This document shows, in pieces, positions 1,238-26,003 of a stretch of 64,000 bases of DNA; position 1 is the stretch's first letter, and each line of letters begins with the position of its first letter. The notes under the pieces were generated by a model. That model was not told the origin of the DNA, ran no database searches, and worked only from the letters and a program-made list of their open reading frames with translations. The stretch covers positions 744,001 through 808,000 of the forward strand of contig NZ_CP080647.1 in the NCBI RefSeq assembly GCF_019599145.1, in the 5' to 3' direction. The translations under genes and the position numbers were made by a program. Source of the stretch: Streptomyces akebiae (lineage in GTDB: Bacteria > Actinomycetota > Actinomycetes > Streptomycetales > Streptomycetaceae).

Positions 1238-2224
1238 TCACAGCCCGGGCGGGAACACATAGGAGACACGGTCCGCGATGCCCGGAGGCACCTCGACACA
1301 CTCGGCGGCGGACCGCTGCGCCACCTGCCCGAGCGGCCCCTCCTCGACCTGGATCTGATCGAGGATCACGCGTACGGCGTGCTCGACGGGCAGGAAGCGG
1401 CCGGGGAGCACGCTGCAGGTGAGGTACGCCGTGAAGGGCGCGGCTGCTGGATTCAGCCGCAGCACGGGTGGCAGCGCGTCCCATTCCTCGGGGAAGTCCG
1501 GCCCTTCCCAGGGAACCGGCGTGAGCACCGCGCGGCCGTCGTCGCGGAGCAGTCCCAGCCGGACCAGCTGCCAGACCGCGGCGAGGAAGGCACAGGACCA
1601 CGTGCGCTGTCCTTCCGTCTCGCTCCACAGCTCGACGTCCATGAAGACGGAGTGGCCGCGCGCGTCGGTCTCCCTGGGCGGCTGCCAGACCGCTCCGGCC
1701 GGGTCCAGGGCGGCGGAGGTGCGCCGTGCCGGGGTGCGGCTGCCGTTGCTGAGCCATCCCGTGCGGCTGACGGGCGGCCGGAAGCCGCTGCTGCCCGGCG
1801 GTGGGGATTCCACCAGCCTGTGCATGACGGACTCGGCGGGGCGGATTTGCCTACGGTCGGCGCCGGGAGCGACCGCACAGGCGGATTCGCGAGCCAGGTA
1901 GTCGATGGTCAGTCCGGCACGGGTGGCCTCTTCTACGAGCGAGGGCAGCAGTTCGTCGGGAGCGGCGAGCCGGGAGAAGTAGTCGTCGATGAGGAAGCAC
2001 GTGCTGACGCGGGGGCGTGGGCCGGTGACGGATGTGCCGAGGCCGGACCGGACGGCGTCCACCCACGGCCGTACGGTGGCGAAGTGCCGCCGTAGCCGCT
2101 CGGGCCCCTGGACGATGTCTTCCATGTACAAGTGGCCGATCTCCAGGGAGAGGTGGGAGAACGGCAGGGATTCGGTGCGCGGCTCGGCGCTGGACTCCCG
2201 GAAGATCGGGGCGGGTCGGTTCAC
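1238..2224 (-). CDS. SCO2522 family protein (unknown function)
   Basis: A 328-residue protein starting at GTG 2224. The start overlaps the stop of the upstream P-loop gene in a GTGA quartet, the same junction seen one gene earlier, which decides it over longer in-frame starts. Recognisable stretches include SHLSLEIGHLYMEDI near the N-terminus, STCFLIDDYF, and SVFMDVELWSE in the middle. No signal peptide, membrane segment or enzyme motif is evident. It is the central member of the SCO2521-2525-like cassette and is translationally coupled to the variant P-loop protein, so an adaptor or partner role is an inference only. Confidence 0.65.
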   Translation of the reverse strand: MNRPAPIFRESSAEPRTESLPFSHLSLEIGHLYMEDIVQGPERLRRHFATVRPWVDAVRSGLGTSVTGPRPRVSTCFLIDDYFSRLAAPDELLPSLVEEATRAGLTIDYLARESACAVAPGADRRQIRPAESVMHRLVESPPPGSSGFRPPVSRTGWLSNGSRTPARRTSAALDPAGAVWQPPRETDARGHSVFMDVELWSETEGQRTWSCAFLAAVWQLVRLGLLRDDGRAVLTPVPWEGPDFPEEWDALPPVLRLNPAAAPFTAYLTCSVLPGRFLPVEHAVRVILDQIQVEEGPLGQVAQRSAAECVEVPPGIADRVSYVFPPGL

Positions 2225-3147
2225 CGTTCTCCCCAGAAACTGTTGTCGGTCAGCCGCTGGGCGAGGTCGCCGAGGGCCCGCCAGGTCTCCGGGTCGGCGA
2301 TCTGCCGGTCGTGCACGTCCTGGTCGGTGATGAGCCTCTCCTGCCACTGGAGGACGGGTTCCAGCGGGATCTTCGCGATCATGCCGGTCCGGCCCAGTCC
2401 CCGGTCGGAGGCGAGCTTCTCGAGCGCGCTGTCGCACTGGGTCATCCACGCGTACCTGGCCGGCCCCACGTGGGACCACAGGGGGGAGTCCGGATCGGGT
2501 ACGGCCGCCCGCACGAAGCGGATCGCGCCCCGCAGGACGTCCCGGTCGTGGCCCATTCCCTCGCCGGTGGTGAGGATGCCGCGCGGCCCGAAGGTGAGTT
2601 CCGCCGCCGCCGCGACGTGCTGCCGCGTCCACCGGTGGAAGATGAGCCACCGGTGGGCGAGCCGGTCGAGACCGCCGCGGGGCGAGGTGGCGTCCAGGAC
2701 CAGGTCGACGGCGTAGCTGCGTCCGGCACTCAGGTCCACAATGATCACGTCGAACTCACGTCTGAGGCGCAGGACGAGATCCGCACACCGGTGCACGTGC
2801 TCCTCACCGGTGACGAACTCTCCGCCGTAGCGGTCGCCCGGCAGGAGGACGAGACGGCCGGAGCCGTTGGGCCGTTCGCGCAGGTCGGCGTGTTCGGTGC
2901 GGGCCCAGACGTCGACGCGGAGGGGTTCACCGACGGAGCCCTGCAGGTAAGCGTGCAGGCCGGTCGTCTCGGCCTGGCGGTGGACGTCGGGAAGGTCGAA
3001 GACGGTGGCGGCGGTGGGGGATCCGAAGTCGAAGTCCAGGAAGCAGACGTCGGAGCCGTCCAGGGCGCACTGGTAGGCGAGGTTGGCGCTGGTGACGGAC
3101 CGGCCGGTGCCGCCCTTGTCCGAGGCCGCGAAGACGAGCACCGTCAC
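2221..3147 (-). CDS. SCO2523 family variant P-loop protein (ParA/MinD-like)
   Basis: A 308-residue cytosolic protein starting at GTG 3147, which overlaps the previous stop as GTGA. It has the ParA/MinD layout: a deviant Walker A at residues 10-17 (DKGGTGRS), a following LDFDFGSPT segment in the position of the second ParA motif, and IIVDLSAG as the Walker B region. In active ParA-type ATPases the loop reads KGGxGKT/S; here the conserved lysine is arginine, so ATP may be bound but hydrolysed poorly or not at all. KGGVGR-type variants are known in actinobacteria. It is coupled to the genes on both sides, suggesting a nucleotide-sensing or scaffold role, which is inferred. Confidence 0.75.
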   Translation of the reverse strand: MTVLVFAASDKGGTGRSVTSANLAYQCALDGSDVCFLDFDFGSPTAATVFDLPDVHRQAETTGLHAYLQGSVGEPLRVDVWARTEHADLRERPNGSGRLVLLPGDRYGGEFVTGEEHVHRCADLVLRLRREFDVIIVDLSAGRSYAVDLVLDATSPRGGLDRLAHRWLIFHRWTRQHVAAAAELTFGPRGILTTGEGMGHDRDVLRGAIRFVRAAVPDPDSPLWSHVGPARYAWMTQCDSALEKLASDRGLGRTGMIAKIPLEPVLQWQERLITDQDVHDRQIADPETWRALGDLAQRLTDNSFWGER

Positions 3148-6608: not shown

Positions 6609-8600
6609 CTACTCCCTGTCGTGGTCCGGGCCTGCGAAGTCCGGACTGCTGTAGTCCGGACTCGTGAAGCTCGGGCGGGTCGGCCCTTCCTCGGTGCTGC
6701 TGAAACCCGGGCCGTAGCCGAGGTGCGGGATGCGACTGGTCGTTCTCCGCGATGCCGTCCGGTGCGGCGCCGCAGCAGTGGCGGGGTCGGCGAGTGCATC
6801 CCGTAGGAACGGCAGGATGCCGCGCTCCAGCAGGGCCTCGCGCCAGGCTTCCCTGGCGCCGGCAACCTCTTCGCTCAGTTCACCGTAGGCTCCTGAGCCA
6901 CGTGAGCGCCGGTGGCGCAGAGCGGTCAGGAGGAGCCCGGCGGCTCCGACCAGAATCGCGGCAGCCGTCACGGCACCGAACACCCAACCGACGGTGAGCA
7001 TCGTCTGTGCGATCGCCTGCTCGGGGTTGAGAACCTTCAGGATGTAGCCGACGAGCAGGCAGATCACAGCAGCGGTGCCGGCGAGGACGGGTGCAAGGAC
7101 AGCGGCCACGGCGCCGGCGCCGGCGCCGGCGCCGGCTGATTGGGTGACTTCGTCGATGGTCGCGGCAAGCCCCACCTCGTTCGTGCTCCGCTTCGTTCGG
7201 CCTGTTTCACGGACGGACGACGGGGTGGACGCCGGTGAGCGCAGTTCATCGCGGACCTTCACGTAGTGCTCGTACTCGGTGGCTGCCGCCACGGTGATGA
7301 GTGCGGAGGCGTTGAGTGCCATGGCGCGAAGTTGTTCGGGGCTGATCCGCAGTACTCCGGCGGCCAGTTCCGGGCGGCGCGGTACGGAGCGCAGCGCCTC
7401 GTCGAGGATCCGTTCGAACTCCGCGCGGTCCTCGCTGAGCAGGTGGTGCCGGATCGACGGCCGCCACGACGAACCCGACGCGGGCCCCGAAGCGCTCCCG
7501 CTTGGGCCGCCGGGCCGCCGGGCCGCCGGTGGCGGATTCGGTGTGTGTGGCGAAGGTGGGGTGCTCTCGGCTGTACCTTCGCCGTCCGACTGCGAACCGC
7601 TTTGGGACGGCGGGCGCGTGGATCGATCGGCTTCTGGGGTGGCGGCAAGCCGTGGCAAAGGTGCTGGGGCCGCGCGTCGCTCACCTTCTGAACGCTCGAT
7701 CACGGCCACGAGCATGAGCCGCGCCCTCTCCAGGCGACGCTCATCGCCCAGTGTCTGGGCGGCCTCGGTCTCCGCGGTGGCGAGGTTGACCAGCGCGGAG
7801 CGGGACAGAGAATGGTGTGGGCCGAGTACGGCGGACACCTTTTGGGCGGCGATCGAGAGGACATCGGCGGCCTGCTCCCACCGTTCACGATCCCCTGCCG
7901 CCAGCGCCGATCCGAACTGGGCCCGGGCCACGGTGATCAGAGCGGAGAGTGACTTCGGATGGTCACCGCCGAGCAGCCGCACCAGTCGGCGTGCCGTAAG
8001 TGCGACGGCGTGCACGCGTTCATCCGCTTCGGTGTGGCGTCCCTGCTGGCGGTTGGCCTCCGCCACAACGGATTCCGCCAGGAGCCGGATTTCCATCGAC
8101 TCCGGTTCATGCAAGGAGTCGTCACAAGCCCCGAGCCTCAGCGCCTCCTCGGCCGCCCTCGTGGCCCCCGTGAGGTCTCCCAACCGCAGCTTGACCGACG
8201 CCAGATTGGCGACGCTCCTGGCCGCGGCGCCGGCTGGATCATTCTGCGCCTCCAGGACGAAGGCCGGCGACAGGACCCCGACCGCAGCCGAGATGAGACC
8301 ACGGTCGACCAGAATGACAGCCAGTTCATTGCGGGTATCGCCGGGCAGCGCGAGCGACTTCGGATCCCACTGAAGCTGCGCGACGACGCCCCGCAGCAAC
8401 GCGTCTGACTCTGCGGCAAGGCCGAGCGCTTCGAGCAGCGCCACCAGATAGGCAAGGTCCCGGCCAGGCTGCGCCCGCTGGAACAGATCGGGGGCCCTGC
8501 TCAGCAAGAGGGTGGCCGAAGCCGCTCTGCGCCGGGCACCAGTGTCTCCGCGCAGGCTCAGTTCAGCCTGGTCGATGGCTTCCTGCCAGAGGTCGATCAT
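6609..8600 (-). CDS. TPR-containing membrane protein of a Trypco1/trypsin unit
   Basis: A 663-residue modular protein. Residues 1-310 are helical repeats of TPR character (for example GDLTGATRAAEEALRLG, LGGDHPKSLSALITVARAQ). A Ser/Pro/Gly-rich linker follows (about 315-385), then a helical domain (about 386-470), an alternating Gly-Ala run, and two membrane segments at about 497-524 and 533-561. The tail repeats a short motif (TSPDYSSPDFAGPD). ATG 8600 overlaps the protease stop as ATGA, so the two are coupled. With a Trypco1-like protein and a trypsin-fold protease upstream, it could be the membrane-acting effector or target of a conflict system. No enzyme domain is recognised. Confidence 0.7.
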   Translation of the reverse strand: MIDLWQEAIDQAELSLRGDTGARRRAASATLLLSRAPDLFQRAQPGRDLAYLVALLEALGLAAESDALLRGVVAQLQWDPKSLALPGDTRNELAVILVDRGLISAAVGVLSPAFVLEAQNDPAGAAARSVANLASVKLRLGDLTGATRAAEEALRLGACDDSLHEPESMEIRLLAESVVAEANRQQGRHTEADERVHAVALTARRLVRLLGGDHPKSLSALITVARAQFGSALAAGDRERWEQAADVLSIAAQKVSAVLGPHHSLSRSALVNLATAETEAAQTLGDERRLERARLMLVAVIERSEGERRAAPAPLPRLAATPEADRSTRPPSQSGSQSDGEGTAESTPPSPHTPNPPPAARRPGGPSGSASGPASGSSWRPSIRHHLLSEDRAEFERILDEALRSVPRRPELAAGVLRISPEQLRAMALNASALITVAAATEYEHYVKVRDELRSPASTPSSVRETGRTKRSTNEVGLAATIDEVTQSAGAGAGAGAVAAVLAPVLAGTAAVICLLVGYILKVLNPEQAIAQTMLTVGWVFGAVTAAAILVGAAGLLLTALRHRRSRGSGAYGELSEEVAGAREAWREALLERGILPFLRDALADPATAAAPHRTASRRTTSRIPHLGYGPGFSSTEEGPTRPSFTSPDYSSPDFAGPDHDRE
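7110..7136. repeat. GGCGCC simple tandem repeat
   Basis: Four perfect GGCGCC units plus GGC inside the TPR/membrane gene. They encode the Gly-Ala alternation just before the first membrane segment. Such runs can vary in unit number between strains, here in steps of two codons without frameshift. Confidence 0.8.
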
Positions 8601-9418
8601 GCGTCGTCACCACGCAACTGACGTTCCATGGCCGCTTTTGCGGCGATGAACCTGAGTTCGGCGACTTGAGACGGATCGAGCAGCGCGCGCTGGGACCACT
8701 CGTCGATCCGATCGAACCATGATTCCACCGAGGAGGCCGCTCCCTCGACGGTCAGCGTTTGTGCGCTCAGGACCTGTGTGGGCGACGCGCTTGCCGGATG
8801 GACCACATCCAGCAGATGCTCCACATCGAACTGGTCGAAGCGGCGCAGGGCTTCCCCGATGGTGGCCGCGAAGAGCACGTTGGCGGCTCGGTCGGCAGCG
8901 GCTCGGTCGGGAGCCTGCTCCAGGAGGATGCCCACGATCACGGGCTCCTGGTCCTCGGGAAGGCCCTTGACGACGGGGCCGCCGGAATAGCCCGAGTAGT
9001 CACCCAGGGACTGGTGCGCTGTCAATTGCAGCGCCTCGATGACCCCGCCTCCCTCGCAAAGGTACTCCGTCATACCGTTGTCGACGTGTCCCCTGAGGTG
9101 TACTTCGGATGCCGCAGGACGGTACGGCCCGTGCCAGTCGTCTCCGCCATGGGCGACGCCGGCCCGGGGTATCGGCAGCAGTACCTCGTAAGCGTCGGAG
9201 ATCATGATCAGGGCGAGGTCCGCGTTCTTGTCACGGCGGCACACCTGGCCCGCCAGCCGGCTGCCGTCCGTCAGGACCACGTCCACGTGCTCGTCCAGTG
9301 TGTTGAGGCCCCGGAGGCAGTGCAGTGCCGTCAGCACATAGCGACGGGTCAAGAGGAACCCGCCGCCGAGGCGCTGTTGTGAGTGGAAGAGCTCGACCCA
9401 GTAACTCGCGTCGATCAC
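8597..9418 (-). CDS. Trypsin-like serine protease (conflict-system type)
   Basis: A 273-residue protein with a trypsin-fold domain in the first 190 residues. The catalytic triad is readable: His33 in TALHC, Asp67 in KNADLAL, Ser145 in GYSGGP. There is no signal peptide, so it should act in the cytoplasm, unlike secreted Streptomyces proteases. The C-terminal 80 residues are helical and may bind partners. GTG 9418 overlaps the Trypco1 stop and its own stop overlaps the TPR gene, forming a three-gene coupled unit. Trypsin-like proteins paired with Trypco domains are described in actinobacterial NTP-dependent conflict systems; cleavage of the neighbouring TPR protein is an inference. Confidence 0.85.
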   Translation of the reverse strand: MIDASYWVELFHSQQRLGGGFLLTRRYVLTALHCLRGLNTLDEHVDVVLTDGSRLAGQVCRRDKNADLALIMISDAYEVLLPIPRAGVAHGGDDWHGPYRPAASEVHLRGHVDNGMTEYLCEGGGVIEALQLTAHQSLGDYSGYSGGPVVKGLPEDQEPVIVGILLEQAPDRAAADRAANVLFAATIGEALRRFDQFDVEHLLDVVHPASASPTQVLSAQTLTVEGAASSVESWFDRIDEWSQRALLDPSQVAELRFIAAKAAMERQLRGDDA

Positions 9419-9726
9419 GGTGACTCCGGGACCCGCTCCACGCTGAGGGTGACCTCGAACGACGCCTCAGCCGACGCCTTGGACAGGATGACCCCGGCCT
9501 CCGCCGCCAACGTCAGCCCGAACGTCACCTCCATGCTCGCCACCCGCCAACCGTCGCGGCGTTGTACCTGCGAGAGGGACCGTTGAGCAATGTCCGATGC
9601 CTGGACAATGGCCTCCTCCAACTCGGCGGCCCGGTCACCGAGAGCAGAACTCGACCGCGTACGGCTGGAGATCTGCCGACTGCCCGTCGCGTCCACAGCA
9701 ACGGTTTCGATCCGAACATCCGCCAC
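9415..9726 (-). CDS. Trypco1 domain protein (CU044_2847-like)
   Basis: A 103-residue protein matching the trypsin-co-occurring domain 1 pattern: a strand-rich head, a helix (LGDRAAELEEAIVQ), then the family tail VTFGLTLAAEAGVILSKASAEASFEVTL. GTG 9726 is chosen because GGGGGA lies at ribosome-binding distance, and the longer frame to 9846 adds arginine-rich, non-family sequence. It is first in the unit and coupled to the protease by a GTGA overlap. The family has no known enzyme activity; it is thought to be a small regulatory or recruiting partner of the protease. Confidence 0.75.
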   Translation of the reverse strand: MADVRIETVAVDATGSRQISSRTRSSSALGDRAAELEEAIVQASDIAQRSLSQVQRRDGWRVASMEVTFGLTLAAEAGVILSKASAEASFEVTLSVERVPESP

Positions 9727-10349: not shown

Positions 10350-11759
<1,410 letters not shown>

Positions 11760-11913
11760 TCCGGAGCGGGCCCTTCCTCGATGCGGTTCAAGCGTGGACG
11801 TGAGTGGGTGCGGCAACAGGCCGCGGGACCGGAAGGCCGCGGGGACGTCCCAGGAGTCTTGCTGGGGAAGTCCCCGCGGTTTCGACGCCGTCGGCATCGG
11901 CATCGCCATCGGC

Positions 11914-13197
11914 TCAGAGCAGCTTGTCCTTCGCCTTGTAGTAGGCGCCGCCGAACGGCAGGAACCAGGGGGTGCCGTTGTAGAAGGGGACGGGCACCTT
12001 CGGGAAGCCCAGGCCGCGCAGCGGGTTGGCGTCGGGGTTGCCGTCCATCATCTCGGCGACGGCGCGGCCCATGTAGGTGGCCATCTGGACGCCGTGGCCG
12101 CAGTAACCCATGGAGTAGTAGAGGCCGTTGACCTCACCCGCGTGCGGAACGCGGTCCCAGGAGAAGCCGACCATGCCGCCCCACACGTAGTCGATGCGCA
12201 CCCCCGCCAGCTGCGGGAAGATCTCGGTCATCTCCCGCTTGAGGATGTCACCGCTCTTGACGTCGGAGGCCGGGTTGGAGGGGGCGAAGCGGGCCCGGCC
12301 GCCGAAGGCGAGGCGGTTGTCCGGAGTGAGGCGGACGTAGTGGCCGACGTTCTTGTGGGCGACCAGCAGGCGGCCGTTGGGGATGAGCTCCTTGGCGCGT
12401 GCCTCCCCCAGCGGCTCGGTGACGATGATGAAGCTGCCGACGTTGATCAGCCGCTTCCGGAACCACGGCATCGACTGGTCGGTGTAGGCGTCCGTGGCCG
12501 CCATGACCTGCTTGGCGCGGATGGTGCCGTGCAGGGTCTCCACCACGAAGCCGCCGCCGGGGAGGCGGGTGAGGCCGGTGGCGGCGTTGCGTTCGTGGAT
12601 CTCGGCGCCGGCGCGCTCGGCGGCGTGTGCCAGGCCACCGACGAACTTGCCCACGTGCAGGCCCGCGCTGAGCGGGTCGAGCAGGGCGCCGTGGTAGTAG
12701 TCCGTGCCGAGCTCGGCCCGCAGTTCGCTCTTGCTCAGGACGATGGTCTCGTGGCCGAAGTTGTCGGCCAGGTCGCGCTGCTTGGCCCGCAGTCCCTCGA
12801 AGTGCCCGGGCTTGCAGACCGCGCCGAGGCGGCCGGAGCGGTTGAAGTCGCAGTCGATGTTCTCGGCCCTGGTGAGGTCCTCCACGACGTCGACCGCCTC
12901 GCGGAAGGCGTCGTAGAGCTCACGGGCCCGTTCCTGCCCGTAGCGCTTGCGCGCCTCCGCGGGGCTGATGGTGATGCCCTGGGTGCACATGCTGCCGTTG
13001 CGCCCGGAGGCGCCCGAGCCGACCTTGTCCTTCTCGACGAGGACGGTACGGGCGCCCTTGCGGGCGGTGTGGTAAGCGGTGGACAGCCCGGTGAGGCCGC
13101 CGCCGATCACCACCACGTCCGCCTCGTCGGGCAGGTCCTTGCCGGAACGGTCGGGGAGGGCGGGGGCTGTGTCCAGCCAGTAGGGGATCTGCTTCAT
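11914..13197 (-). CDS. FAD-dependent amine/amino acid oxidase (DAO family)
   Basis: A 427-residue flavoprotein. The N-terminal dinucleotide motif is VVVIGGGLTGLSTAYHTAR, followed by GSGASGRNGS typical of the OrdL/PuuB branch that oxidises N-substituted amines such as gamma-glutamylputrescine. The C-terminal part (GYCGHGVQMATYMGRAVAEMM) is the second FAD-contact region. ATG 13197 fits the family start. It lies 49 bp after the HAD hydrolase gene. The substrate is not known; the neighbouring polyamine-type importer and aldehyde dehydrogenase suggest oxidative deamination to an aldehyde. Confidence 0.85.
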   Translation of the reverse strand: MKQIPYWLDTAPALPDRSGKDLPDEADVVVIGGGLTGLSTAYHTARKGARTVLVEKDKVGSGASGRNGSMCTQGITISPAEARKRYGQERARELYDAFREAVDVVEDLTRAENIDCDFNRSGRLGAVCKPGHFEGLRAKQRDLADNFGHETIVLSKSELRAELGTDYYHGALLDPLSAGLHVGKFVGGLAHAAERAGAEIHERNAATGLTRLPGGGFVVETLHGTIRAKQVMAATDAYTDQSMPWFRKRLINVGSFIIVTEPLGEARAKELIPNGRLLVAHKNVGHYVRLTPDNRLAFGGRARFAPSNPASDVKSGDILKREMTEIFPQLAGVRIDYVWGGMVGFSWDRVPHAGEVNGLYYSMGYCGHGVQMATYMGRAVAEMMDGNPDANPLRGLGFPKVPVPFYNGTPWFLPFGGAYYKAKDKLL

Positions 13198-13246
13198 GGC
13201 GTGCGTCCTCTGTGTTCTCGGTCTGGTTCGCCGGTTACGCCGTCGG

Positions 13247-13918
13247 TCAGCAGCCGAGCAGCTTCGGCAGGCCCGACAGGTCGGGCAGCTCGTCGTACGG
13301 CTGGTAGTCGGCGCTGCCGGGGCGGCCGTAACGGTTGATCCACACACGGCGCTTCAGGCCGAGGTCACGGGTCGGGATGTGGTCGTACTCCCAGCCCTGG
13401 GCGGTGTGGATGACCTGGGACGGCTCGACGCCCATGGTCCGGAAGGCGTGCTTGAAGGTCTGGCGGTCCGGCTTGTAGGCGCCCGCCTGCTGGGCGGTGA
13501 TGACGTAGTCGAACTCGACGCCGATGTTCTCGACGTTCCGCGCGATCAGGTTGTCGTCGGTGTTGGAGATGATGGCGATCTCGTACTTGGTCTTCAGCGC
13601 GCGCAGGGCCTCCGGCACCTCCGGGAAGGGGCCGAAGGTGGGGACCGCGTCCACCAGGGCCTCGCCGTCGGAGTCGCGGTACTCCAGGCCGTGCAGGCGC
13701 ATGGCGTTGCGCAGGCTGGAGGGCAGGGCCTCGTGGTAGGGGCGGTAGGCCTCCAGGACGGCCTGGAAGCGCATGACGCGGAAGTCGTCGAGGAACTCGT
13801 CGACGTCCAGGTTGTCCAGGTCCAGCCGGCCGGAGTCGGAAAGGATCTTCAGAGTGGTGGGGCCGAGCTGGAAGTCGATCAGGGTTCCATAGGCGTCGAA
13901 GGTGACGATCTCTCGCAT
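13247..13918 (-). CDS. HAD superfamily hydrolase, haloacid dehalogenase type II-like
   Basis: A 223-residue HAD protein. The nucleophile is Asp8 in TFDAYGTL, the type II haloacid dehalogenase form; motif II is ISNTDDN and a lysine follows in AGAYKPDRQTF. The usual phosphatase DxD is absent (DAY), as in L-2-haloacid dehalogenases, but many such enzymes act on other substrates. It sits 57 bp after the aldo/keto reductase gene and before the flavin oxidase. A dehalogenase role is unproven. Confidence 0.8.
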   Translation of the reverse strand: MREIVTFDAYGTLIDFQLGPTTLKILSDSGRLDLDNLDVDEFLDDFRVMRFQAVLEAYRPYHEALPSSLRNAMRLHGLEYRDSDGEALVDAVPTFGPFPEVPEALRALKTKYEIAIISNTDDNLIARNVENIGVEFDYVITAQQAGAYKPDRQTFKHAFRTMGVEPSQVIHTAQGWEYDHIPTRDLGLKRRVWINRYGRPGSADYQPYDELPDLSGLPKLLGC

Positions 13919-13975
13919 GGTGTTCAGCCTCGATCTCGCGGGATTTCGGATTTTCCGGGGGTGAGGATGGGGGCT

Positions 13976-14914
13976 TCAGACGACGCGTTCACCGGGGGTG
14001 ACGATCGCGTCGAGCGCGGCCAGGTCGGCCGGGGTGGGAATCCAGTCGGCCGCCGCCGCGTTGGCGGTGACCTGTTCGGGGGTCATGGCGCCGCAGATGA
14101 CGGAGCCGACGGCGGGGAGCGCGGCCAGTGCGCCCACGGCGACTTGGAGGAGGGTGCGTCCTCGTTCGGCACCGTACGCGGTGAGCGCATCGGCCCTGTC
14201 GAGGGCGGCGTCGGTGAGCCAGCCCTGGCGCCAGGACAGCCGGCTGCCGGCCGGGGGTTGCTCGCCGCGCCGGTACTTGCCGCTGAGCAAACCGTTGGCC
14301 AGCGGGTAGTACGGCAGCAGTCCGACGCCGTGGCGCAGGCAGGCCGGGATCAGGTCCCGCTCCACCGCCCGGTCGAGCAGGTGGTAGCGGGCCTGGGTGG
14401 AGACGAAGGCGTCGGTGAGGTCCTCGGCCGGAAGGTTGGAGCAGCCGATGTACCGGATCTTGCCCTCGTCCACCAGTTCCCGGAGCGCGGCGACCGTCTC
14501 CTCCAGCGGGGTGACGCCGTCCGGCTCGTGGTACTGGTACAGGTCGATCCGATCCGTGCCGAGTCGGCGCAGCGACGCCTCGACGGCGTACCGGATGTAG
14601 GGGCGGGCGCCGCGCCGGCCGTAGAGGTCGGCCTCCTGCCCCATCTCCATGCCGAACTTGGTGGCCAGCACGATCTCGTCGCGGCGCCCCTTGAGGGCGG
14701 CGCCGAGGAGCCGTTCGCCGTCACCGCGCCCGCTGTCGCTCTCGCCGAACCCGCCGTACATGTCGGCGGTGTCGAACAGGGTGATGCCCGCGTCCAGGGC
14801 CGCGTGGACGACCGCCTTCGTGCCGTCCTCGTCCAGACGGGAGCCGAAGTTGTTGCCGCCGACACCGACCACGGAGACGGTCGGGCCGCGCTCGCCCAGC
14901 GTGCGATATCTCAT
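13976..14914 (-). CDS. Aldo/keto reductase
   Basis: A 312-residue TIM-barrel oxidoreductase using NADPH. Family features: GVGGNNFG near the start, the catalytic Asp/Tyr pair in FDTADMYGGFGESD, the catalytic Lys in ATKFGM, and the active-site His in YQYHEPD. ATG 14914 overlaps the aldehyde dehydrogenase stop as ATGA. It probably reduces an aldehyde or ketone intermediate, acting beside the dehydrogenase that would oxidise it. No specific substrate can be given. Confidence 0.88.
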   Translation of the reverse strand: MRYRTLGERGPTVSVVGVGGNNFGSRLDEDGTKAVVHAALDAGITLFDTADMYGGFGESDSGRGDGERLLGAALKGRRDEIVLATKFGMEMGQEADLYGRRGARPYIRYAVEASLRRLGTDRIDLYQYHEPDGVTPLEETVAALRELVDEGKIRYIGCSNLPAEDLTDAFVSTQARYHLLDRAVERDLIPACLRHGVGLLPYYPLANGLLSGKYRRGEQPPAGSRLSWRQGWLTDAALDRADALTAYGAERGRTLLQVAVGALAALPAVGSVICGAMTPEQVTANAAAADWIPTPADLAALDAIVTPGERVV

Positions 14915-16371
14915 GACCGCCTCCCGAAGCCGATGCAGACGTTCTTGGTCTGCGTGTAGCTGTCGAGGGCCGCGAGACCCTTCTCCCGCCCCCAGCCGCT
15001 GTGCTTGTAGCCGCCGAAGGGGAGCTCGACGCCGGTGCCGACGCCGGTGGCGTTGACGTAGACCTGGCCGGCCCGGATGCCCTCGGCCAGGCGCATCGCC
15101 TTGTCGATGTCGCGGGTCCAGACGTAGGACGCGAGGCCGTACGGGCTGTCGTTGGCGATGTCCAGGGCCTCGTCGGTGTCGTCGAACTCGATGACGGTGA
15201 CGACGGGGCCGAAGATCTCCTCGCGGGCGCACCGGGCGTCGTTGGTGACGCCGGTGAGGACGGTCGGCTCGACGTAGTAGCCGTCGGCGAGGGCCGGGTC
15301 GGTCGGCGCTCGGCCGCCGGCCCGTGCCACGGCGCCCTCTTCGCGGGCCAGGTCCAGGTAGCCGAGGACCCGGTCGCGCTGCCGAGCGGCGACCAGCGGG
15401 CCGACGTCCGGGTCGGTGAGCCCCGGGCCGACGCGCAGGGAGGCGGCGTGGTCGACCAGCTTGTCGAGGAACTCCTCGGCGCCGCGCTGGAGCAGCAGCC
15501 GGGTGCCGGCCGAGCAGGTCTGGCCGGCGTTGCCGAAGGCCGAGGCCGCGACGGCGGTGAGCGCCAGGTCGAAGTCGGCGTCGGCGAAGACGACGACCGG
15601 TGACTTGCCGCCCAGTTCGGTGACGGAGGGCACCACGTTGGCGGCGGCGGCCTGGGCGACCTTGATGCCGGTCGGCACCGAGCCGGTGAAGGTGACCTGG
15701 TTGATGTCCGGGTGTCCGGCGAGGGCCGCGCCGGTCTCGCCGTCACCGGGGACGACGTTGAGGACGCCCGGCGGCAGGCCGCACTCCAGGGCGATCCTGC
15801 CGATCTCCAGCGGGGTGAGCGGCGCCTCGGGCGAGGGCTTGAGCACCACCGTGCAACCGGCCGCCAGTGCGGGGGCGGAGCCCCTGGCGGTGTTCTGCAG
15901 GGGGTAGTTGAACGGGATGATCTGGCCGGAGACACCGATCGGCTCACGCACGGTGTAGTCGATCAGGCCGGGCCCGAGGGGGATCGTGGTACCGCCGAGT
16001 TTGTCGGCGACGCCCGCGTAGAACTCGAAGTAGCGGGCCGCCGCCTCGACATCGGCCTTGGCCTGGCTCAGCGGCTTGCCGACGTCCTGGCTCTCCAGCC
16101 GGGCCAGCCGTTCGCCCTGGTAGCGGATGGCCTCCGCGATCCGGTGGAGGACCCGGCCCCGGTCGGCGGCGCGCATGCGGGCCCACGCGGGAGAGGTGAG
16201 GGCCGAGCGGGCCGCCGCCACCGCCTGGTCCACGTCCGCCGCGCCGGCCAGCGCCACCTGGGCGATGGCGGTGCCGTCGGACGGGTCGAGGACGGTGAAG
16301 GAGCGGCCGTCGGCGGCGGGCACCTGCTTGCCGTCGATGAGCAGCTCGGTCAACCGCAGTTCGCCGGTCAT
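14911..16371 (-). CDS. NAD(P)-dependent aldehyde dehydrogenase
   Basis: A 486-residue aldehyde dehydrogenase. The general-base glutamate is in TELGGKSP and the catalytic cysteine in GNAGQTCSAGTR; the cofactor loop is FTGSVPTG and the C-terminal EIFGPVVTV and LPFGGYKHSGWGRE are normal. ATG 16371 overlaps the deacylase stop as ATGA. The sequence is of the betaine/aminoaldehyde dehydrogenase type. In this cluster it probably oxidises the aldehyde produced by the aminotransferase or the flavin oxidase. Confidence 0.9.
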   Translation of the reverse strand: MTGELRLTELLIDGKQVPAADGRSFTVLDPSDGTAIAQVALAGAADVDQAVAAARSALTSPAWARMRAADRGRVLHRIAEAIRYQGERLARLESQDVGKPLSQAKADVEAAARYFEFYAGVADKLGGTTIPLGPGLIDYTVREPIGVSGQIIPFNYPLQNTARGSAPALAAGCTVVLKPSPEAPLTPLEIGRIALECGLPPGVLNVVPGDGETGAALAGHPDINQVTFTGSVPTGIKVAQAAAANVVPSVTELGGKSPVVVFADADFDLALTAVAASAFGNAGQTCSAGTRLLLQRGAEEFLDKLVDHAASLRVGPGLTDPDVGPLVAARQRDRVLGYLDLAREEGAVARAGGRAPTDPALADGYYVEPTVLTGVTNDARCAREEIFGPVVTVIEFDDTDEALDIANDSPYGLASYVWTRDIDKAMRLAEGIRAGQVYVNATGVGTGVELPFGGYKHSGWGREKGLAALDSYTQTKNVCIGFGRRS

Positions 16372-17321
16372 GGCCGGATCTCTCCCTGCACCTCGCCGAA
16401 GATGACGACCTCGTCGCCGGGGCGGACGGTACGGATCCGGCGGACCCAGAGCACGATGCCGTCCTGCGGGGCGAGGACCTCCTCCAGCGTGTCGCCGTAG
16501 TGGTCGGTGATGGTGGCGATCAGGTCGCCTTCCTTGCAGGTGTCCCCCGGCTCGGCGTGGCCGACGAAGAAGCCGCCGGCGTCGGAGCGGGCGAAAGTGC
16601 CGGAGACAGTGGTGTAGGTGTCCCGCAGCTCCGCCGCACCGTCGATCATGCCGAGTTGCCGGAGGATGTTGCGGATGGAGTGCATGTGCAGGGCGACGTT
16701 CTCCTCGCGGTAGGTGCCGCCGCCGACCTCGATGGTGATGGCGGGCTTGCCCGCCGCGAGGGTGGGATGGCGCACCGTGCCGCCCCACTTGCCACCCTTC
16801 CAGACCAGCTCGTGCCCGGCCGCGAGGGCCATGTCCGTCGCCAGTTCCTCGTAGCCGCCCTGAAGGATGACCAGCGGGGCGATCTCACCGAACGTGCCGC
16901 CGGTGTGCAGGTCGACCAGGGCGTCGATGGCCGGGACGACCTGCTCGACGAAGGTGGCGGCCAGGCGCAGCGAGTACGAGCCGTCCGCGTCACCGGGGAA
17001 GATGCGGTTGAGGTTGAGGTGGTCCAGGCCGCTGGTGCGGGCCGCCGCCTCGAAGGCCGGGGTGTTCATGCAGGGGATGGCGACGAGCGTGCCGCGCAGG
17101 GTGGCCGGGTCGATCTCGGCGACCACGCGGCGGACGGCTTCCTGGCCGTCGTACTCGTCGCCGTGCACGCCGGCGTCCACACACAGCACCGGGCCGTCCT
17201 GCGCGCCGTTGACGACGATCAGTGGGATGCCGAGTTCCACACCGTAGCTGCTGGTGCCGACCGGGATGAGGCCTTGGGCGCGCTCGCCGGGGGCGACGGT
17301 CAGCGGACCGATGGAGTACAT
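16368..17321 (-). CDS. Succinylglutamate desuccinylase/aspartoacylase family deacylase (DoeB-like) 1
   Basis: A 317-residue zinc-dependent amidohydrolase of the M14-like aspartoacylase family. Zinc ligands are seen in GVHGDEYDG and DLHTGG, and the catalytic glutamate in TIEVGGGTY. The N-terminal NLNRIFPGD and the C-terminal barrel (VRPGDEVVIFGEVQ) match DoeB, which deacetylates N-alpha-acetyl-2,4-diaminobutyrate in ectoine catabolism. It lies 23 bp after the aminotransferase gene and couples to the aldehyde dehydrogenase. A second, divergent copy lies at 22770. The true acyl substrate is unknown. Confidence 0.85.
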   Translation of the reverse strand: MYSIGPLTVAPGERAQGLIPVGTSSYGVELGIPLIVVNGAQDGPVLCVDAGVHGDEYDGQEAVRRVVAEIDPATLRGTLVAIPCMNTPAFEAAARTSGLDHLNLNRIFPGDADGSYSLRLAATFVEQVVPAIDALVDLHTGGTFGEIAPLVILQGGYEELATDMALAAGHELVWKGGKWGGTVRHPTLAAGKPAITIEVGGGTYREENVALHMHSIRNILRQLGMIDGAAELRDTYTTVSGTFARSDAGGFFVGHAEPGDTCKEGDLIATITDHYGDTLEEVLAPQDGIVLWVRRIRTVRPGDEVVIFGEVQGEIRP

Positions 17322-17344
17322 GTCGTTCCTTTCCGAAACATGGA

Positions 17345-18703
17345 TCAGATGCGGGTGGACGCCTCGGCGAGGGTCTCCGCGAGGATGTCGGCGATACGGT
17401 CGAGAAGGGCCCGGTCGCTGATCAGCGGGGGCGCGATCTGGACCAGTGGCGCGGACCGGTTGTAGACGCGGGCGAGGAGGCCGGCCTCGCGCAGCCGGCG
17501 CGGGATCAGGTCGGCGATCAGGTCGGCGCGGGCGGTGTCGCCGAAGCCGCCGTCCTCTTGGTCGCCGACGAGTTCGCAGGCGTAGAAGAACCCGGCTCCC
17601 CGGACGTCGCCGACGATTCTCAGGTCCGCGAGGGATGCCATGCGGCCCGCCAGGTGGCCTTGGAGGTCACGGACGTTCTCCAGGATCCGGTCCCGCTCCA
17701 TGATCTCCAGGTTGCGCAGGGCGATGGCCGCGCTCAGCGGGTGCCCGGCGAAGGTGTAGCCGTGGTTGAGGACCGTGCCGGGCCGGTTGATGACCTCGAC
17801 GACACCCTGGCTGACCAGAGTCGCCCCCAGGGGGGCGTAACCGGCGGTGATGCCCTTGGCAACGGTGACCATGTCCGGGCGGGCGCCGTAGCGGTCCCCG
17901 CCGAACCACTCCCCGAGGCGGCCGAAGGCCGTGATCACCTCGTCGGCGACGAGCAGGAGTCCGTACCGGTCGGCCAGCGCCCGCAGACCCTGCCAGTAAC
18001 CCTGGGGCGGGGTGATGCAGCCGCCCCGGTTCTGCACCGGCTCGGCGATCAGCATGGCGATGGTCTCCGGCCCCTCGGCCAGAATCGCGTCCTCCAGCTC
18101 GGCGAGCAGCCGGGCCGTGTACAGGCCGTCGTCCGCGTATTCCGGTGCGAGACCGAAGCGGTTGGTGTTGGCCACGAACCGGGTGTCGATCGCCGGCGGG
18201 CCGTACGGCTCCGTCAGGCCGGGGTCGTCGGTGAGGGAGAGGGCACCGATGGTCAGTCCGTGGTAGGCGCCGCGCCGAGCGATGGCCTTGGTGCGGCCCG
18301 GTTCGCCGCGCAGAGCGTGGTAGCGGCGGGCGATCTTCCAGGCGGTCTCGACGGCTTCGGCGCCGCCGCTGGAGAAGAAGGTGTGCTCGATGTCGACGGG
18401 GGCGATCCGCGACAGGCGCTCGGCGAGTTCGATCGCCGTGGGGTGCGCGGAGCCGGACCACAGCGGGCTGTAGCACAGCTCGCGCAGCTGCTTCTCGGCC
18501 GCCTCGGCGAACTCGGGGCCGTAGGAGTAGCCGAGCTGGCAGCAGTACAGCCCTGACAGTCCGTCGATGTAGCGGTTGCCGTCCGCGTCGTCGATGTACG
18601 GGCCCTCGCCGCGGCTGACGACGAACAGTTCCTGGCCCGGCATCGCGAGCGATCCGTTGGCGGTCATGTGCAGCAGCAGGTGCCGCTGAGCGGTGTCGAT
18701 CAT
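17345..18703 (-). CDS. Class III aminotransferase
   Basis: A 452-residue PLP enzyme (omega-amino acid or diamine:pyruvate type). The PLP lysine is in TVAKGITAGYAPLGA; conserved GLSGLYCCQLGY, SSGGAEAVETAWKI and LLVADEVITAFGRLG blocks are present. ATG 18703 overlaps the permease stop as ATGA, tying it to the importer. The likely role is removing a terminal amino group from the imported compound to give an aldehyde for the downstream dehydrogenase. Related enzymes act on putrescine, beta-alanine or 2,4-diaminobutyrate; the choice here is open. Confidence 0.88.
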   Translation of the reverse strand: MIDTAQRHLLLHMTANGSLAMPGQELFVVSRGEGPYIDDADGNRYIDGLSGLYCCQLGYSYGPEFAEAAEKQLRELCYSPLWSGSAHPTAIELAERLSRIAPVDIEHTFFSSGGAEAVETAWKIARRYHALRGEPGRTKAIARRGAYHGLTIGALSLTDDPGLTEPYGPPAIDTRFVANTNRFGLAPEYADDGLYTARLLAELEDAILAEGPETIAMLIAEPVQNRGGCITPPQGYWQGLRALADRYGLLLVADEVITAFGRLGEWFGGDRYGARPDMVTVAKGITAGYAPLGATLVSQGVVEVINRPGTVLNHGYTFAGHPLSAAIALRNLEIMERDRILENVRDLQGHLAGRMASLADLRIVGDVRGAGFFYACELVGDQEDGGFGDTARADLIADLIPRRLREAGLLARVYNRSAPLVQIAPPLISDRALLDRIADILAETLAEASTRI

Positions 18704-19566
18704 ACGGTCTCACCTCCGGGGGCGGCGACGCCCACCGTGTTCTCGACCGAGAGCAGGGATTCCTGCCGTCCGGTGCCGATCCAGCGGACCAGGGCGACGA
18801 GGCCGAGGGCGAGGACGGCGAAGGCGATGAGGATGGCGCTCACTGCGGTCACACTGGGGTCGATCTCGAAGGTGAGCGAGTTGTAGACCTGCACGGGCAG
18901 GGTGACGGTGTCGACGGACGAGAGGAACTGGGAGATGTAGAACTCGTCGAAGCTGGTGATGAAGGAGAAGATCGCTGCCGCGATCATTCCGGGGGCGGCG
19001 AGGGGGAAGGTGATCTTCCGGGCGATGGTGAGGCGGCCGGCGCCCATGCTGGCGGCGGCGTCCTCCAGGCGTTCGTCGATGCCGCGCAGGGTGGCGATCA
19101 GGATCAGGACCGCGATGGGTGAGGCGAGCACGGTGTGGCCGAGCGCGATGGCGATCGGGCTGCCGAGCATCGCGGCCGGCTCGAAGAGCAGGAACAGCCC
19201 GAGTGCGGTGACGATCTGCGGGATGAGCAGGGGTCCGAGGACCAGGGCGAACACCGCCGAGCGCAGCGGGAGTTCGCTGCGGACCAGGGCGGTCGCCGCG
19301 GTCACCCCGATGATGAGGGAGAACACGGTGCTCAGCGCGGCGACCAGGGCGCTCAGGGAGAGCGCGGCGGGCCATTTGCTGCCGTCGGCGAAGAGGGCCC
19401 TGTACCAGTTCAGCGTCCACGCCTCGGGCGGGAAGGCGGCGAAGGCGTTGTTGCTGAAGGAGGTGACGAGGATGACGACGATCGGCAGGGCCAGGAACAG
19501 CAGGATCAGGGTGGCGACGACGGTCAGGGCGATTCGGCCGGTGAGGGTCTTGCGCAGCTCCATCAT
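18700..19566 (-). CDS. ABC transporter permease, polyamine (PotC) type
   Basis: A 288-residue inner-membrane permease with about six hydrophobic segments. The cytoplasmic EAA loop is LEDAAASMGAGRLTIARKITFPL, which contacts the ATPase. Sequence and gene order match PotC of spermidine/putrescine importers. Two ATG codons in tandem (19566, 19563) are possible; the first overlaps the PotB-like stop by four bases. It works with the PotB-, PotA- and PotD-like products encoded just upstream. Confidence 0.88.
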   Translation of the reverse strand: MMELRKTLTGRIALTVVATLILLFLALPIVVILVTSFSNNAFAAFPPEAWTLNWYRALFADGSKWPAALSLSALVAALSTVFSLIIGVTAATALVRSELPLRSAVFALVLGPLLIPQIVTALGLFLLFEPAAMLGSPIAIALGHTVLASPIAVLILIATLRGIDERLEDAAASMGAGRLTIARKITFPLAAPGMIAAAIFSFITSFDEFYISQFLSSVDTVTLPVQVYNSLTFEIDPSVTAVSAILIAFAVLALGLVALVRWIGTGRQESLLSVENTVGVAAPGGETV

Positions 19567-20453
19567 GAGGCGTTCCTCTTCTTACGGCTGGCGCCCAGGG
19601 AGCTGACGACCTTGACCAGCAGCAGTCCGGCCAGGGTGAGGACCAGCAGGATGACGCCCTGCGCGGCCGCCCCGTTCCACTGGTTCTCCTTCGTCACCTG
19701 CTGGTTGATGAGGGTGGCGATCATCGTCTGGTTGGGTCCGCCCATCAGGGCCGGAGTGATGTAGTACCCCAGTGACAGGATGAAGCTGAGCAGGCCGGCA
19801 CTGGCCAGGCCAGGCGCGACCAGCGGCAGATAGACCCGGCGGAAGATCGTCACCTTGCCCGCGCCCATGCTCGACGCGGCCGCCAGCAGCCGCCGGTCCA
19901 CCCCTCGCATCACCCCATAAAGGAGCAGCACCGTGTAGGGGAGCATCATCGAGGTGGTGCCGATGACGACGCCCAGTTCGTTGTAGAGCAGCTGGTAGGG
20001 CGCCCCCGGGGCCCACGCCAGGGTTTCGTTCACCAGGCCCTTGTCGCCGAGCATGATGATCCAGCCGTAGGTGCGCACCAGGGCGGACACGAAGTGCGGG
20101 ACGACCACGACCAGCATCGCCAGACCCGCCCACACCGGCTTCAGCCGGGTGATCGCCTGGGCCAGGACGAACCCGAAGACCAGGCTGAGCACGGCCGTTT
20201 CGGCGGAGATCCGCAGCGTGGTGAACAGCACCGACAGATTCACCCCGGTCAGGGCGTCGGCGTACCAGTGCAAGGTGAACGATCCGTCGGCGTCCTTCAG
20301 GCTCAGCACCAGCGTGCTGAAGATCGGGTAGACGAACAGCACCAGCAGATAGACCACGACCGGCAGCGCGTACAGGATCCCGACCCGGGTCCGGCGCGAG
20401 GCCAGGAGCTTGCGCGGACGGGCGGGAGCGCCCGCGGTGAGGGTGGCTGCCAT
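19563..20453 (-). CDS. ABC transporter permease, polyamine (PotB) type
   Basis: A 296-residue permease with a short charged N-terminus and about six membrane segments starting at LYALPVVVYLLVLFVYP. The EAA loop is LAAASSMGAGKVTIFRRVYLPL. It pairs with the PotC-like permease to form the membrane channel. The start ATG 20453 lies three bases after the ATPase gene stop. Confidence 0.88.
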   Translation of the reverse strand: MAATLTAGAPARPRKLLASRRTRVGILYALPVVVYLLVLFVYPIFSTLVLSLKDADGSFTLHWYADALTGVNLSVLFTTLRISAETAVLSLVFGFVLAQAITRLKPVWAGLAMLVVVVPHFVSALVRTYGWIIMLGDKGLVNETLAWAPGAPYQLLYNELGVVIGTTSMMLPYTVLLLYGVMRGVDRRLLAAASSMGAGKVTIFRRVYLPLVAPGLASAGLLSFILSLGYYITPALMGGPNQTMIATLINQQVTKENQWNGAAAQGVILLVLTLAGLLLVKVVSSLGASRKKRNAS

Positions 20454-20456
20454 GGC

Positions 20457-21596
20457 TCACCCTCCCTGTTCGTCGGCGAAGAGGTTGACGTCCTCGGGGT
20501 CGGCGGAGATCCCGACCCGCTCACCGGCGACCGGGCCACGGCCGGCCGGGACCTCCAGCCGCAGCAGCGGCGCCTCCTTGCCGTCGATGCGCACCCCCGC
20601 GCGGACCAGGGTGCCCACGTAGGTGGCCATCTCGACCGTGCCGGTACAGAACCCGTCGTCGGTGGCGACGGCCCGCAGCCGGCCCGGCTGCACAGCGACC
20701 TTCACCTGCGTACCCAGGGCCAACTGGTGACGGCGCGCCTCCAGCAAGCCGCCGGACCTGTCCAGGCGGACGAGGGTGTGCTCTTCGGTGTGCCGCTCCA
20801 CGCGGCCGGGCAGGAAGTTGGCCGCGCCGAGGAAGTCCGCGACGAACGGCGTCCTCGGCCGCTCGAACAGCTCCCGGGGGGTGTCGAACTGCTCGATCAG
20901 GCCGTTGCGCATCACCGCGATGCGGTCCGACATGACCAGCGCCTCTTCCTGATCGTGCGTCACGTAGATGACGGTCAGGCCGAGTTCCTGCTGGATGGTC
21001 TTGATCTCGACCTGGAGCTGGTCGCGGAGCTTCTTGTCCAGGGCGCCGAGCGGTTCGTCCATGAGGATGACCGGCGGCCGGTAGACCAGCGCGCGGCACA
21101 AGGCCACACGCTGCTGCTGACCACCGGACAGCTCACGCGGCTTACGGCCACCGAACCCCGACAGGCCCGCGATCTCCAGCGTCTCGCCCACCCGGCGGCG
21201 GATCTCGTCCTTGCCCACCCCGCGCAGCGTCAGCGGGAAAGCGACGTTCTCGCTCACGGTCATGTGAGGGAAGAGCAGGTACTGCTGGAAGACGAAACCC
21301 AGGTTCCGCCTCTGCGGGGCGAGGCGGGTGACGTCACGGTCCCCGACGGAGATGGTGCCGGAGTCGGGTTCGCAGAACCCGGCGATCATCATCAGCGTCG
21401 TGGTCTTGCCCGACCCGGAGGAGCCGAGGAAAGTGACGAACTCCCCGGCCGCGATCTCCATGGATGCCTCGTCGACGGCGACGACGTCGCCGTAGGTCTT
21501 GCGCAGAGCCACCACCGACAGCGACTTGCCGGTCGCGGTGGCCGACTTGTTGCCGGCCACCTTGACGGACGGTGTGGCGATACCGAATTCAGCCAC
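20457..21596 (-). CDS. ABC transporter ATP-binding protein, polyamine (PotA) type
   Basis: A 379-residue ATPase. Walker A is GSSGSGKTT, the Q-loop is VFQQYLLFP, the signature is LSGGQQQR, Walker B is VILMDEP and the switch His is in VTHDQEEA. The C-terminal 120 residues form the TOBE-type regulatory domain of the MalK/PotA branch. It overlaps the substrate-binding protein gene by eight bases, so all four importer genes are co-translated. It powers uptake of the compound degraded by the surrounding enzymes. Confidence 0.92.
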   Translation of the reverse strand: MAEFGIATPSVKVAGNKSATATGKSLSVVALRKTYGDVVAVDEASMEIAAGEFVTFLGSSGSGKTTTLMMIAGFCEPDSGTISVGDRDVTRLAPQRRNLGFVFQQYLLFPHMTVSENVAFPLTLRGVGKDEIRRRVGETLEIAGLSGFGGRKPRELSGGQQQRVALCRALVYRPPVILMDEPLGALDKKLRDQLQVEIKTIQQELGLTVIYVTHDQEEALVMSDRIAVMRNGLIEQFDTPRELFERPRTPFVADFLGAANFLPGRVERHTEEHTLVRLDRSGGLLEARRHQLALGTQVKVAVQPGRLRAVATDDGFCTGTVEMATYVGTLVRAGVRIDGKEAPLLRLEVPAGRGPVAGERVGISADPEDVNLFADEQGG

Positions 21597-22692: not shown

Positions 22693-22769
22693 TGTGTGCC
22701 TCCTGGTGGTGCGGCCGTGAGAAGAGGGGCGGCTGGGGACGTGGAAAGGGGGATGGTGGGAACGGTGGT

Positions 22770-25250: not shown

Positions 25251-26003
25251 ATGGAAATGAAGAGCGTCACGAGATCGCTGCGGGTTCTGGAAGCGGTCGC
25301 CCAGCATCAGCCGGTCACCGTCGGGGAGTTGACGAAACTCTTCGGCCTGCCGAAGTCGACCGTGCAGCGCACCCTGGTCACCCTGGCGGAGGCGGGCTGG
25401 CTGCGCGCGAACCGCAAGGACACCACCCGCTGGGAGATCGGCGCCCGTGTACTGGCCGTACGGCCCGCAGCCCTGCAGGGCTCCAGCCTGTTCGCCGCCG
25501 CCCGCGAACCCATGATCCGCCTCCGCGACACGGTGAACGAGACCATCCACCTCTCGGTGCCCGACGCACTGCACAGCATGGTCGTCGTCGACCGCGTCGA
25601 CTGCGACCATCCCGTACGGACCTTCCACACCATCGGCGACACGTCACCGCTGCACGCCACGGCCACCGGGCGCGCGATCCTCTCCCAGCTTTCGAAGCAG
25701 GACGTCGAGGAACTCATCGCCCAGGGCCTGGAGCGCTTCAGCGACACGACCCCCGCCGACCCCGACGAGCTGCGCGCCGAACTGGACCGGATCCGCGCCG
25801 ACGGCTACGCGATCAACCGGAACCAGTACCGGCCGGGCGTCTGCGCCCTCGCCGCACCCGTGCTCGACGAGAGCGGGACACCGTTGGCCGCCGTGGCCAT
25901 CTCGATGCCCGACTCCCGGTACGACGTGCAACGGGAGTCCGAGTGGGGTGGCCTCGTGGCCGGCGCGGCAGAGGAGATCAGCGGACGCCTACTGGGCGGC
26001 TGA
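25251..26003 (+). CDS. IclR family transcriptional regulator 1
   Basis: A 250-residue regulator. The N-terminal winged helix-turn-helix covers QPVTVGELTKLFGLPKSTVQRTL; the C-terminal effector domain holds DTSPLHATATGRAIL and PGVCALAAPVLDESG. ATG 25251 follows GGGGGAAA. It is divergent from the MSOX-led catabolic operon and is followed by a strong terminator. The first 150 residues are almost identical to the IclR gene at 26322, while the last 90 differ, suggesting a shared operator but different ligands. Likely a repressor or activator of the flanking catabolic genes. Confidence 0.92.
   Translation: MEMKSVTRSLRVLEAVAQHQPVTVGELTKLFGLPKSTVQRTLVTLAEAGWLRANRKDTTRWEIGARVLAVRPAALQGSSLFAAAREPMIRLRDTVNETIHLSVPDALHSMVVVDRVDCDHPVRTFHTIGDTSPLHATATGRAILSQLSKQDVEELIAQGLERFSDTTPADPDELRAELDRIRADGYAINRNQYRPGVCALAAPVLDESGTPLAAVAISMPDSRYDVQRESEWGGLVAGAAEEISGRLLGG

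Follow-up and report, generated by a model that had tools for sequence, protein, structure and literature searches.

A protease-TPR operon family of Streptomyces with exchangeable C-terminal modules, including copies of host proteins

In Streptomyces akebiae (assembly GCF_019599145.1), a stretch of 64,000 nucleotides (contig NZ_CP080647.1, positions 744,001-808,000; hereafter the window) holds, on the minus strand at window positions 6609-9726, a triad of overlapping genes encoding a Trypco1 protein, a trypsin-fold serine protease and a 663-residue protein with a TPR (tetratricopeptide repeat) domain. The locus is a member of an operon family, seen so far in one genus, in which a constant protease-TPR core carries a swappable C-terminal slot. 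About 280 residues at the C-terminal end of the third protein form a distinct module of host origin, which is not visible from the window alone. The parts of the triad are as follows.

9415..9726, minus strand: Trypco1 protein, 103 amino acids, GTG start (PF19493, E 5.2e-15)
8597..9418, minus strand: trypsin-fold serine protease, 273 amino acids (PF13365/PF00089, alignment of the catalytic triad, hydropathy)
7674..8600, minus strand: constant TPR domain, spanning roughly residues 1-309 of the third protein (profiles, alignment, AlphaFold2)
7455..7673, minus strand: Pro/Ser/Ala/Gly-rich linker of the third protein, residues 310-382 (composition, low model confidence)
6609..7454, minus strand: swapped C-terminal module, residues 383-663 plus stop (copy of a conserved Streptomyces membrane protein, with two hydrophobic segments)

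The original prediction, made from the letters of the window, had placed the three genes here with GTGA and ATGA overlaps, and Pfam matches and exact coordinates bear this out. The GTG start of the protease at 9418 overlaps the Trypco1 TGA stop ending at 9415 by four bases (GTGA), and the ATG start of the third gene at 8600 overlaps the protease TGA stop ending at 8597, again by four bases (ATGA). The Trypco1 protein matches PF19493 with 56.3 bits (curated cut-off 24.6); its structure model is of low confidence (pLDDT 65.8) and gave no match in the Protein Data Bank (PDB) at E 0.001. The protease matches PF13365 (6.3e-8) and PF00089 (4.6e-6), with trypsin matches alone exceeding the cut-off, and it part-matches the trypsin portions of the Avs1b and LmuA models. 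It has no hydrophobic segment above the hydropathy limit used; a PDB sequence search returned weak trypsin-fold matches (best E 0.075), and a plasmid search returned no match. His33, Asp67 and Ser145, described earlier as intact, all stand at the catalytic columns in an alignment of 35 proteases. The window protease is a trypsin-fold serine protease with a His-Asp-Ser triad, and is predicted to be active. The third protein shows a weak TPR match (PF13424, 7.8e-5, below the family cut-off). The AlphaFold2 model of its TPR domain (pLDDT 89.7) is a superhelix closest to designed TPRs and to kinesin light chain; order ends at residue 306, from where confidence is below 50 and the Pro/Ser-rich linker begins. 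Two membrane helices had been expected in this protein, and hydropathy gives segments at residues 488-526 and 533-562; a weaker third hydrophobic stretch (residues 92-113) lies inside the TPR domain.

The end of the third protein has relatives of its own. A scan of contigs with the third gene gave 60 loci, all matching its C-terminal part alone (from residue 353-386 on) as separate proteins of 235-377 residues as called, 36-69% identical to the window module; neither protease nor Trypco1 was found in any of these 60 stretches (tblastn, 1e-3). The titles of the relatives name Streptomyces and a few other Streptomycetaceae. Among them falls a separate copy in the genome of the window itself (L127), which is 68% identical to the near full-length fused module. 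A chance fusion or a degenerate tail as the source of the C-terminus was ruled out by this near full length together with a dN/dS of 0.32 between the fused module and the own-genome copy. The window module is thus a copy of this Streptomyces membrane protein. The gene before the separate homologue in L003, L012, L025, L062 and L127 is presumably phosphoesterase-like, and the neighbour on the other side in L003, L012 and L127 is one that we take to be thiC. Second copies of the membrane family were also seen in another setting (L037:9581-10876, L063:6808-8822 and L064:4995-7035), two of them on plasmids. These are preceded by a small conserved gene, whose product carries the motif YFDPxxDxxAAxVHSxMGAGxAVLFGxTGQI in L063 and L064 and a similar one in L037; the L064 plasmid match has in-frame stops in part.

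The constant core was surveyed in genomes of the same genus, with about five to six candidates scored per genome, the counts being lower bounds. A search with the protease matched at least 25 of 392 genomes at 32 places, counted as 31 genes including that of the window. With the TPR domain as query (residues 1-315), at least 24 places were found in 20 of the 392 genomes, and a protease homologue directly precedes all 24. A profile of 18 TPR domains (A1) matched 33 of 382 genomes of the genus, in five of which the places were all weak (G044, G070, G121, G146 and G245). Across the class the same profile matched 5 of 394 genomes, all five in the own genus; the absences are soft, the profile having been built from this genus and few candidates scored per genome. 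Forty loci were examined with local profiles: the window, 30 from the protease search and nine from the TPR-profile matches, the weak-TPR genomes G245, G070, G121 and G044 lying outside this set. In 35 of the 40, a TPR domain of about 300 residues comes after the protease on the same strand and no more than 300 bases away. Of the other five, L125 and L126 have trypsin and Trypco1 but lack a TPR gene, and L165-L167 show weak TPR matches with no protease alongside. Several pairs may occur in one genome (three in G319, two each in G183 and G247), and their ends differ. The original prediction depended on the three genes not being rare companions; the protease preceding every TPR place, and Trypco1 standing upstream in 21 of the 35 pairs, speak for that. 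The candidate conflict system proposed there is thereby a real system, its defence role being a conjecture from the genes. Trypco1 itself is common in other contexts, with PF19493 present in 305 of 392 genus genomes. The window Trypco1 is 67-93% identical to those of 16 other triad loci, 59% to that of L118, 41% to that of L125 and 38% to that of L126 (alignment A3, mean column identity 76%).

What follows the linker changes from locus to locus: the ends of the 35 third proteins form 13 groups by BLAST, the third protein of L121, which seems broken and is probably a member of another group, having had its clustering set aside. One group of ten is SARP-type. In it NB-ARC was recognised by Pfam in L097, L099 and L106, while L104, L107 and L108 are without it; the SARP plus NB-ARC label of L098, L101, L102 and L103 comes from clustering and length, with a Walker-type motif in L098, L101 and L103, and from no Pfam run of their own. 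L097 is the nearest relative of the window (protease 89%, TPR domain 81% and Trypco1 92% identical), and its slot holds SARP-NB-ARC in place of the membrane module, so the swap between these two loci appears recent on the scale of the family. The idea of a reduced version without an NTPase was not supported by this comparison: the core is protease, TPR domain and variable slot, and the slot of L097 holds SARP with NB-ARC, itself an NTPase. That no NTPase lies next door to the window triad was correct, the closest P-loop gene found being a ParA/MinD-like gene (2221-3147) in the neighbouring operon.

Further modules include a sigma factor of the SigB/SigF/SigG family in L100 (308.7 bits, cut-off 234.35), for which alone PADLOC, run on the third proteins, gave anything, namely sigma-factor-type matches (MzaA, HTH_VI). 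There is also an NsdA-family regulator in L109 (427 bits, cut-off 75), DUF742 in L159 (136.5 bits, cut-off 27) and an SCO5555-family tail in L113 (92.2 bits, cut-off 40). In the HAD module of L112, Gly stands in place of the nucleophile, which is Asp in all three aligned plasmid homologues (of seven found); the CHAT module of L105 keeps candidate His and Cys residues. The modules of L100, L105, L109, L110, L112, L113 and L159, like the membrane module of the window, each form a group of one. A group of three reads as multi-transmembrane, with a weak hydrolase match in L160. A group of eight (L118, L119, L123, L124 and L161-L164), with and without Trypco1, shares a motif like RxIAxGGxSY...IISNPW. 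For the module of L111 the plasmid search gave two partial matches and no name. Since SARP, sigma-factor and NsdA-family modules are regulator-type, the operons might act in development or stress regulation and have no part in defence, with the protease and Trypco1 controlling a set of regulators; the confinement of the class-survey matches to the own genus would suit this. A conserved developmental circuit would hardly be so patchy (20 of 392 genus genomes by the single query), nor would it be expected to show differently ended copies per genome, swaps between near relatives, or CHAT and NB-ARC modules, and this explanation is held to be quite improbable.

Five loci carry an S1-related module, with S1 domains recognised by Pfam in L115, L117, L120 and L122 and none in L114. 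In L115 ribosomal protein S1 is almost complete (NCBIfam PRK07899.1, an equivalog model, 947.6 bits, cut-off 691, positions 6-485 of 486), the start of rpsA being replaced by the TPR protein and linker. The fused S1 shows 4 mismatches in 1457 bases to the separate rpsA of its own genome (99.7% DNA identity), and the rpsA genes of seven other genomes are 91-96% identical to it. An assembly artefact was ruled out, since this genome (G007) is assembled in one contig and four sites distinguish the copy from rpsA. The junction is shared by L117, a locus of another genome, whose DNA is 82% identical to that of L115 in the protease, 77% in the TPR part and 93% in the available S1 part (193 bases). 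The TPR-S1 fusion therefore seems to predate the split of the L115 and L117 loci. As the S1 of L115 is near-identical to its own rpsA while the fusion looks older, the data suggest that the module was later made equal to rpsA, gene conversion being the simplest reading.

The presence of Trypco1 follows the state of the protease, which provides a functional handle on this small protein. Trypco1 lies directly upstream in 21 of the 35 protease-TPR pairs, and the catalytic triad is intact in 20 of these; in the remaining one (L116) two overlapping frames make up a split protease gene, the first piece encoding His and Asp and the second Ser. In the 14 pairs without Trypco1, by contrast, the catalytic serine is lost in 13, replaced by Ala, Gly or Tyr, and five of these also lack His and Asp; L108, with an intact triad and no Trypco1, is the exception. 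Because the Trypco1 label needs just three changes on the protease tree, from which the split gene of L116 was left out, the link covers few independent lineages and the number of independent events is small. This division between intact triads and lost serines points to Trypco1 as a probable regulator of proteolysis. In the serine-less loci other genes occupy the upstream position. In L114, L115, L117, L120 and L122 it is a gene for a pentapeptide-like protein, so described from one sub-cut-off Pfam match (L117, of two tested) and from reading of the sequences; in L119, L121, L123, L124 and L161-L164 it encodes a short protein with one hydrophobic helix by eye. A gene of about 530-900 amino acids on the opposite strand adjoins the pentapeptide-like gene in L114, L115, L117, L120 and L122, and these genes may be further variant parts.

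According to the original prediction, the protease might release a membrane effector. Extended to the family, the TPR part would keep the module inactive until the protease cuts the linker and frees a sigma factor, a SARP, a CHAT protease or a membrane protein. The slot does sit behind a flexible linker, the sigma and SARP modules were recognised over family cut-offs, CHAT keeps its His and Cys, and there are precedents in PMC7159879, where release was proposed for VMAP systems, and in PMC12799240, where trypsin-like proteases were shown to activate pro-nucleases. Release is possible for the window, but it fails as a general rule: 13 of the 35 pairs keep the gene for the TPR protein and its module without a catalytic serine, a freed S1 almost the same as the cell's own would change little, and the HAD module is without its nucleophile. 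As an account of the family, release is regarded as unlikely. Alternatively, the module could be an address, through which the host copy joins a membrane complex, RNA polymerase or the ribosome and so places the protease there to cut that machinery on a trigger. The S1 and sigma-factor modules are close to complete, and such proteins bind to defined machinery in the cell. An address would account for the S1 and membrane modules too, and S1 is kept almost identical in L115, but the S1-carrying loci have a dead protease without Ser, which makes this rather improbable.

The host-protein copies are more readily read as baits, that is, integrated decoys that detect phage attack, and this reading is tentatively favoured over releasable effectors, its chance being put somewhat below even. 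A fused domain that copies a host protein, as in integrated decoys, is found both in the window module and in the S1 of L115. The sigma-factor, NsdA-family, SARP/NB-ARC and DUF742 modules likewise belong to families of ordinary host proteins. A bait has to look like the true target, can do without activity of its own and would gain from gene conversion with the target, and it would account for the S1 near-identical to the cell's own, the HAD without nucleophile and the 13 pairs with dead protease, none of which release explains. The nucleophile-less HAD, in particular, could fit a bait and not an enzyme effector. In such a system the TPR domain would bind the protease and hold the module on its flexible linker, and Trypco1 would restrain or license the active protease. 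An invader that damages or binds the bait would open the complex, upon which the protease would cut its targets and the infected cell would stop growing. All steps from bait to protease activation are conjectural. The window version would watch the membrane, and the S1, sigma-factor and regulator versions translation and transcription; in the pseudoprotease clades another partner, the pentapeptide-like or the short helical protein, might take over the output. More broadly, Streptomyces may possess an immunity resembling the integrated decoys of plant NLR receptors, with a protease-coupled TPR scaffold to which nearly whole host proteins are repeatedly fused, baits that gene conversion can update, and a Trypco1 that pairs with the active protease and vanishes where the protease is dead. 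This wider proposal is possible, though doubtful. If it were true, the bait could be read from the genome and would point to S1, sigma factors and a core membrane protein as phage targets, and each bait could be tested together with a phage factor.

Several observations weigh against the bait. Fusion to the membrane protein is seen once, the module not having been found in the other 39 loci examined, and this module may or may not descend from the copy of its own lineage. A tree of 63 sequences groups the fused module with the own-genome copy (support 89/91, below the star threshold), both on long branches; by path length it is nearer to L003 and L007 (0.52 each) than to the own copy, and its top identity is to L007 (69%). 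Because this origin is unsettled, the chances given above for the bait and for the wider NLR-like proposal have each been lowered slightly. Homogenisation is not general, since the fused S1 of G024 has diverged (89% identical to the query over 63 residues, at a contig end), the start of what is presumably its own rpsA being 98% identical. An own-genome parent was searched for two modules only, the window membrane module and the S1 of L115, and was found for both. CHAT (L105) is a usual conflict effector and not an evident host copy, the three-member multi-transmembrane group is not an evident host copy either, and the L113 module is named by its tail alone. Among the members scanned, the eight-member group has no Pfam name beyond TPR, and the module of L110 has no name and gave no match in the plasmid search. 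Sigma-factor and SARP modules would equally fit a regulated effector. Finally, no defence gene was recognised among the tested neighbours of the window triad, which are mostly metabolic.

Downstream of the triad lie a plus-strand GNAT gene and then the SCO2525/SCO2524-type operon that holds the ParA/MinD-like gene, and upstream are a cupin, a fumarase/aspartase-type lyase and further metabolic genes. The metabolic run at 10350-24973 includes a lyase, an FAD oxidoreductase, an aldo/keto reductase, an aldehyde dehydrogenase, an aspartoacylase-like gene and an aminotransferase and ends with genes that look transporter-like by eye; it is perhaps a solute or amino-acid catabolic cluster. Beyond it stand two tandem plus-strand regulator-like genes (25251-26003 and 26322-27071), the first 40 residues of which are nearly identical (MEMKSV..RSLR.LEAVA).

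Known systems resemble the family in part. PMC7159879 describes ternary conflict systems of the VMAP (MoxR-vWA) type that include Trypco1 and trypsin, and proposes proteolytic release for them. In both cases Trypco1 neighbours a trypsin-like protease, a constant component carries C-terminal domains that vary, one genome may hold several copies with different equipment, and the hosts are actinobacteria of multicellular habit. Here, in contrast, a TPR domain serves as the constant carrier, the modules include several host-type proteins, and in many relatives the protease is dead and Trypco1 absent. Membership was rejected, as the 17 genes at 0.26-18.7 kb of the window, triad included, gave no MoxR or vWA Pfam match; nor did they give a match named VMAP-C, the existence of a Pfam model of that name being unchecked. 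Trypsin-like proteases activate pro-nucleases in Hachiman and AVAST, as PMC12799240 reports. The pairs of nuclease and protease treated there (Hachiman, AVAST, Lamassu and DRT) share with the present family a trypsin-like protease with a partner gene, and the part-matches to Avs1b and LmuA recall them. They differ in that here Trypco1 and not an MBL nuclease lies upstream, the protease is a separate gene of 273 amino acids, and the partner carries exchangeable modules. Membership in Avs1, Lamassu or Hachiman was likewise rejected: the upstream gene is Trypco1 in place of an MBL-type nuclease, and the protease is unfused, with trypsin matches alone over the cut-off. PMC8195603 reports EACC2-caspase systems whose ends vary and to which sigma factors are linked, a parallel to the present family though a different system. 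EACC1 and EACC2 systems (PMC7159879 and PMC8195603) also combine a constant protease component with variable C-terminal domains, and have multi-transmembrane proteins and sigma factors among their partners; unlike them, the present family has a trypsin and not a caspase fold, and its variable part is on the next gene.

A protease-TPR pair or host-protein modules are not described in the available parts of PMC7159879 or PMC10907252, and the terms 'sigma factor', 'sigma-70' and 'SARP' do not occur in the main text of PMC7159879. A search on integrated decoys together with bacteria and phage brought up, among the papers listed, plant, fungal and unrelated work, and further searches listed nothing on this system by title or start of abstract, the subscription literature being mostly outside these searches. 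A protease-TPR-bait system was thus not found in print in the literature searched. A parallel in strategy is that of the integrated decoys of plant NLR receptors, in which a scaffold is fused to copies of host proteins, with a different copy per member, a strategy best known from plants. The family differs from them in having TPR and protease instead of NB-LRR, and in an immune role that is proposed from the genes.

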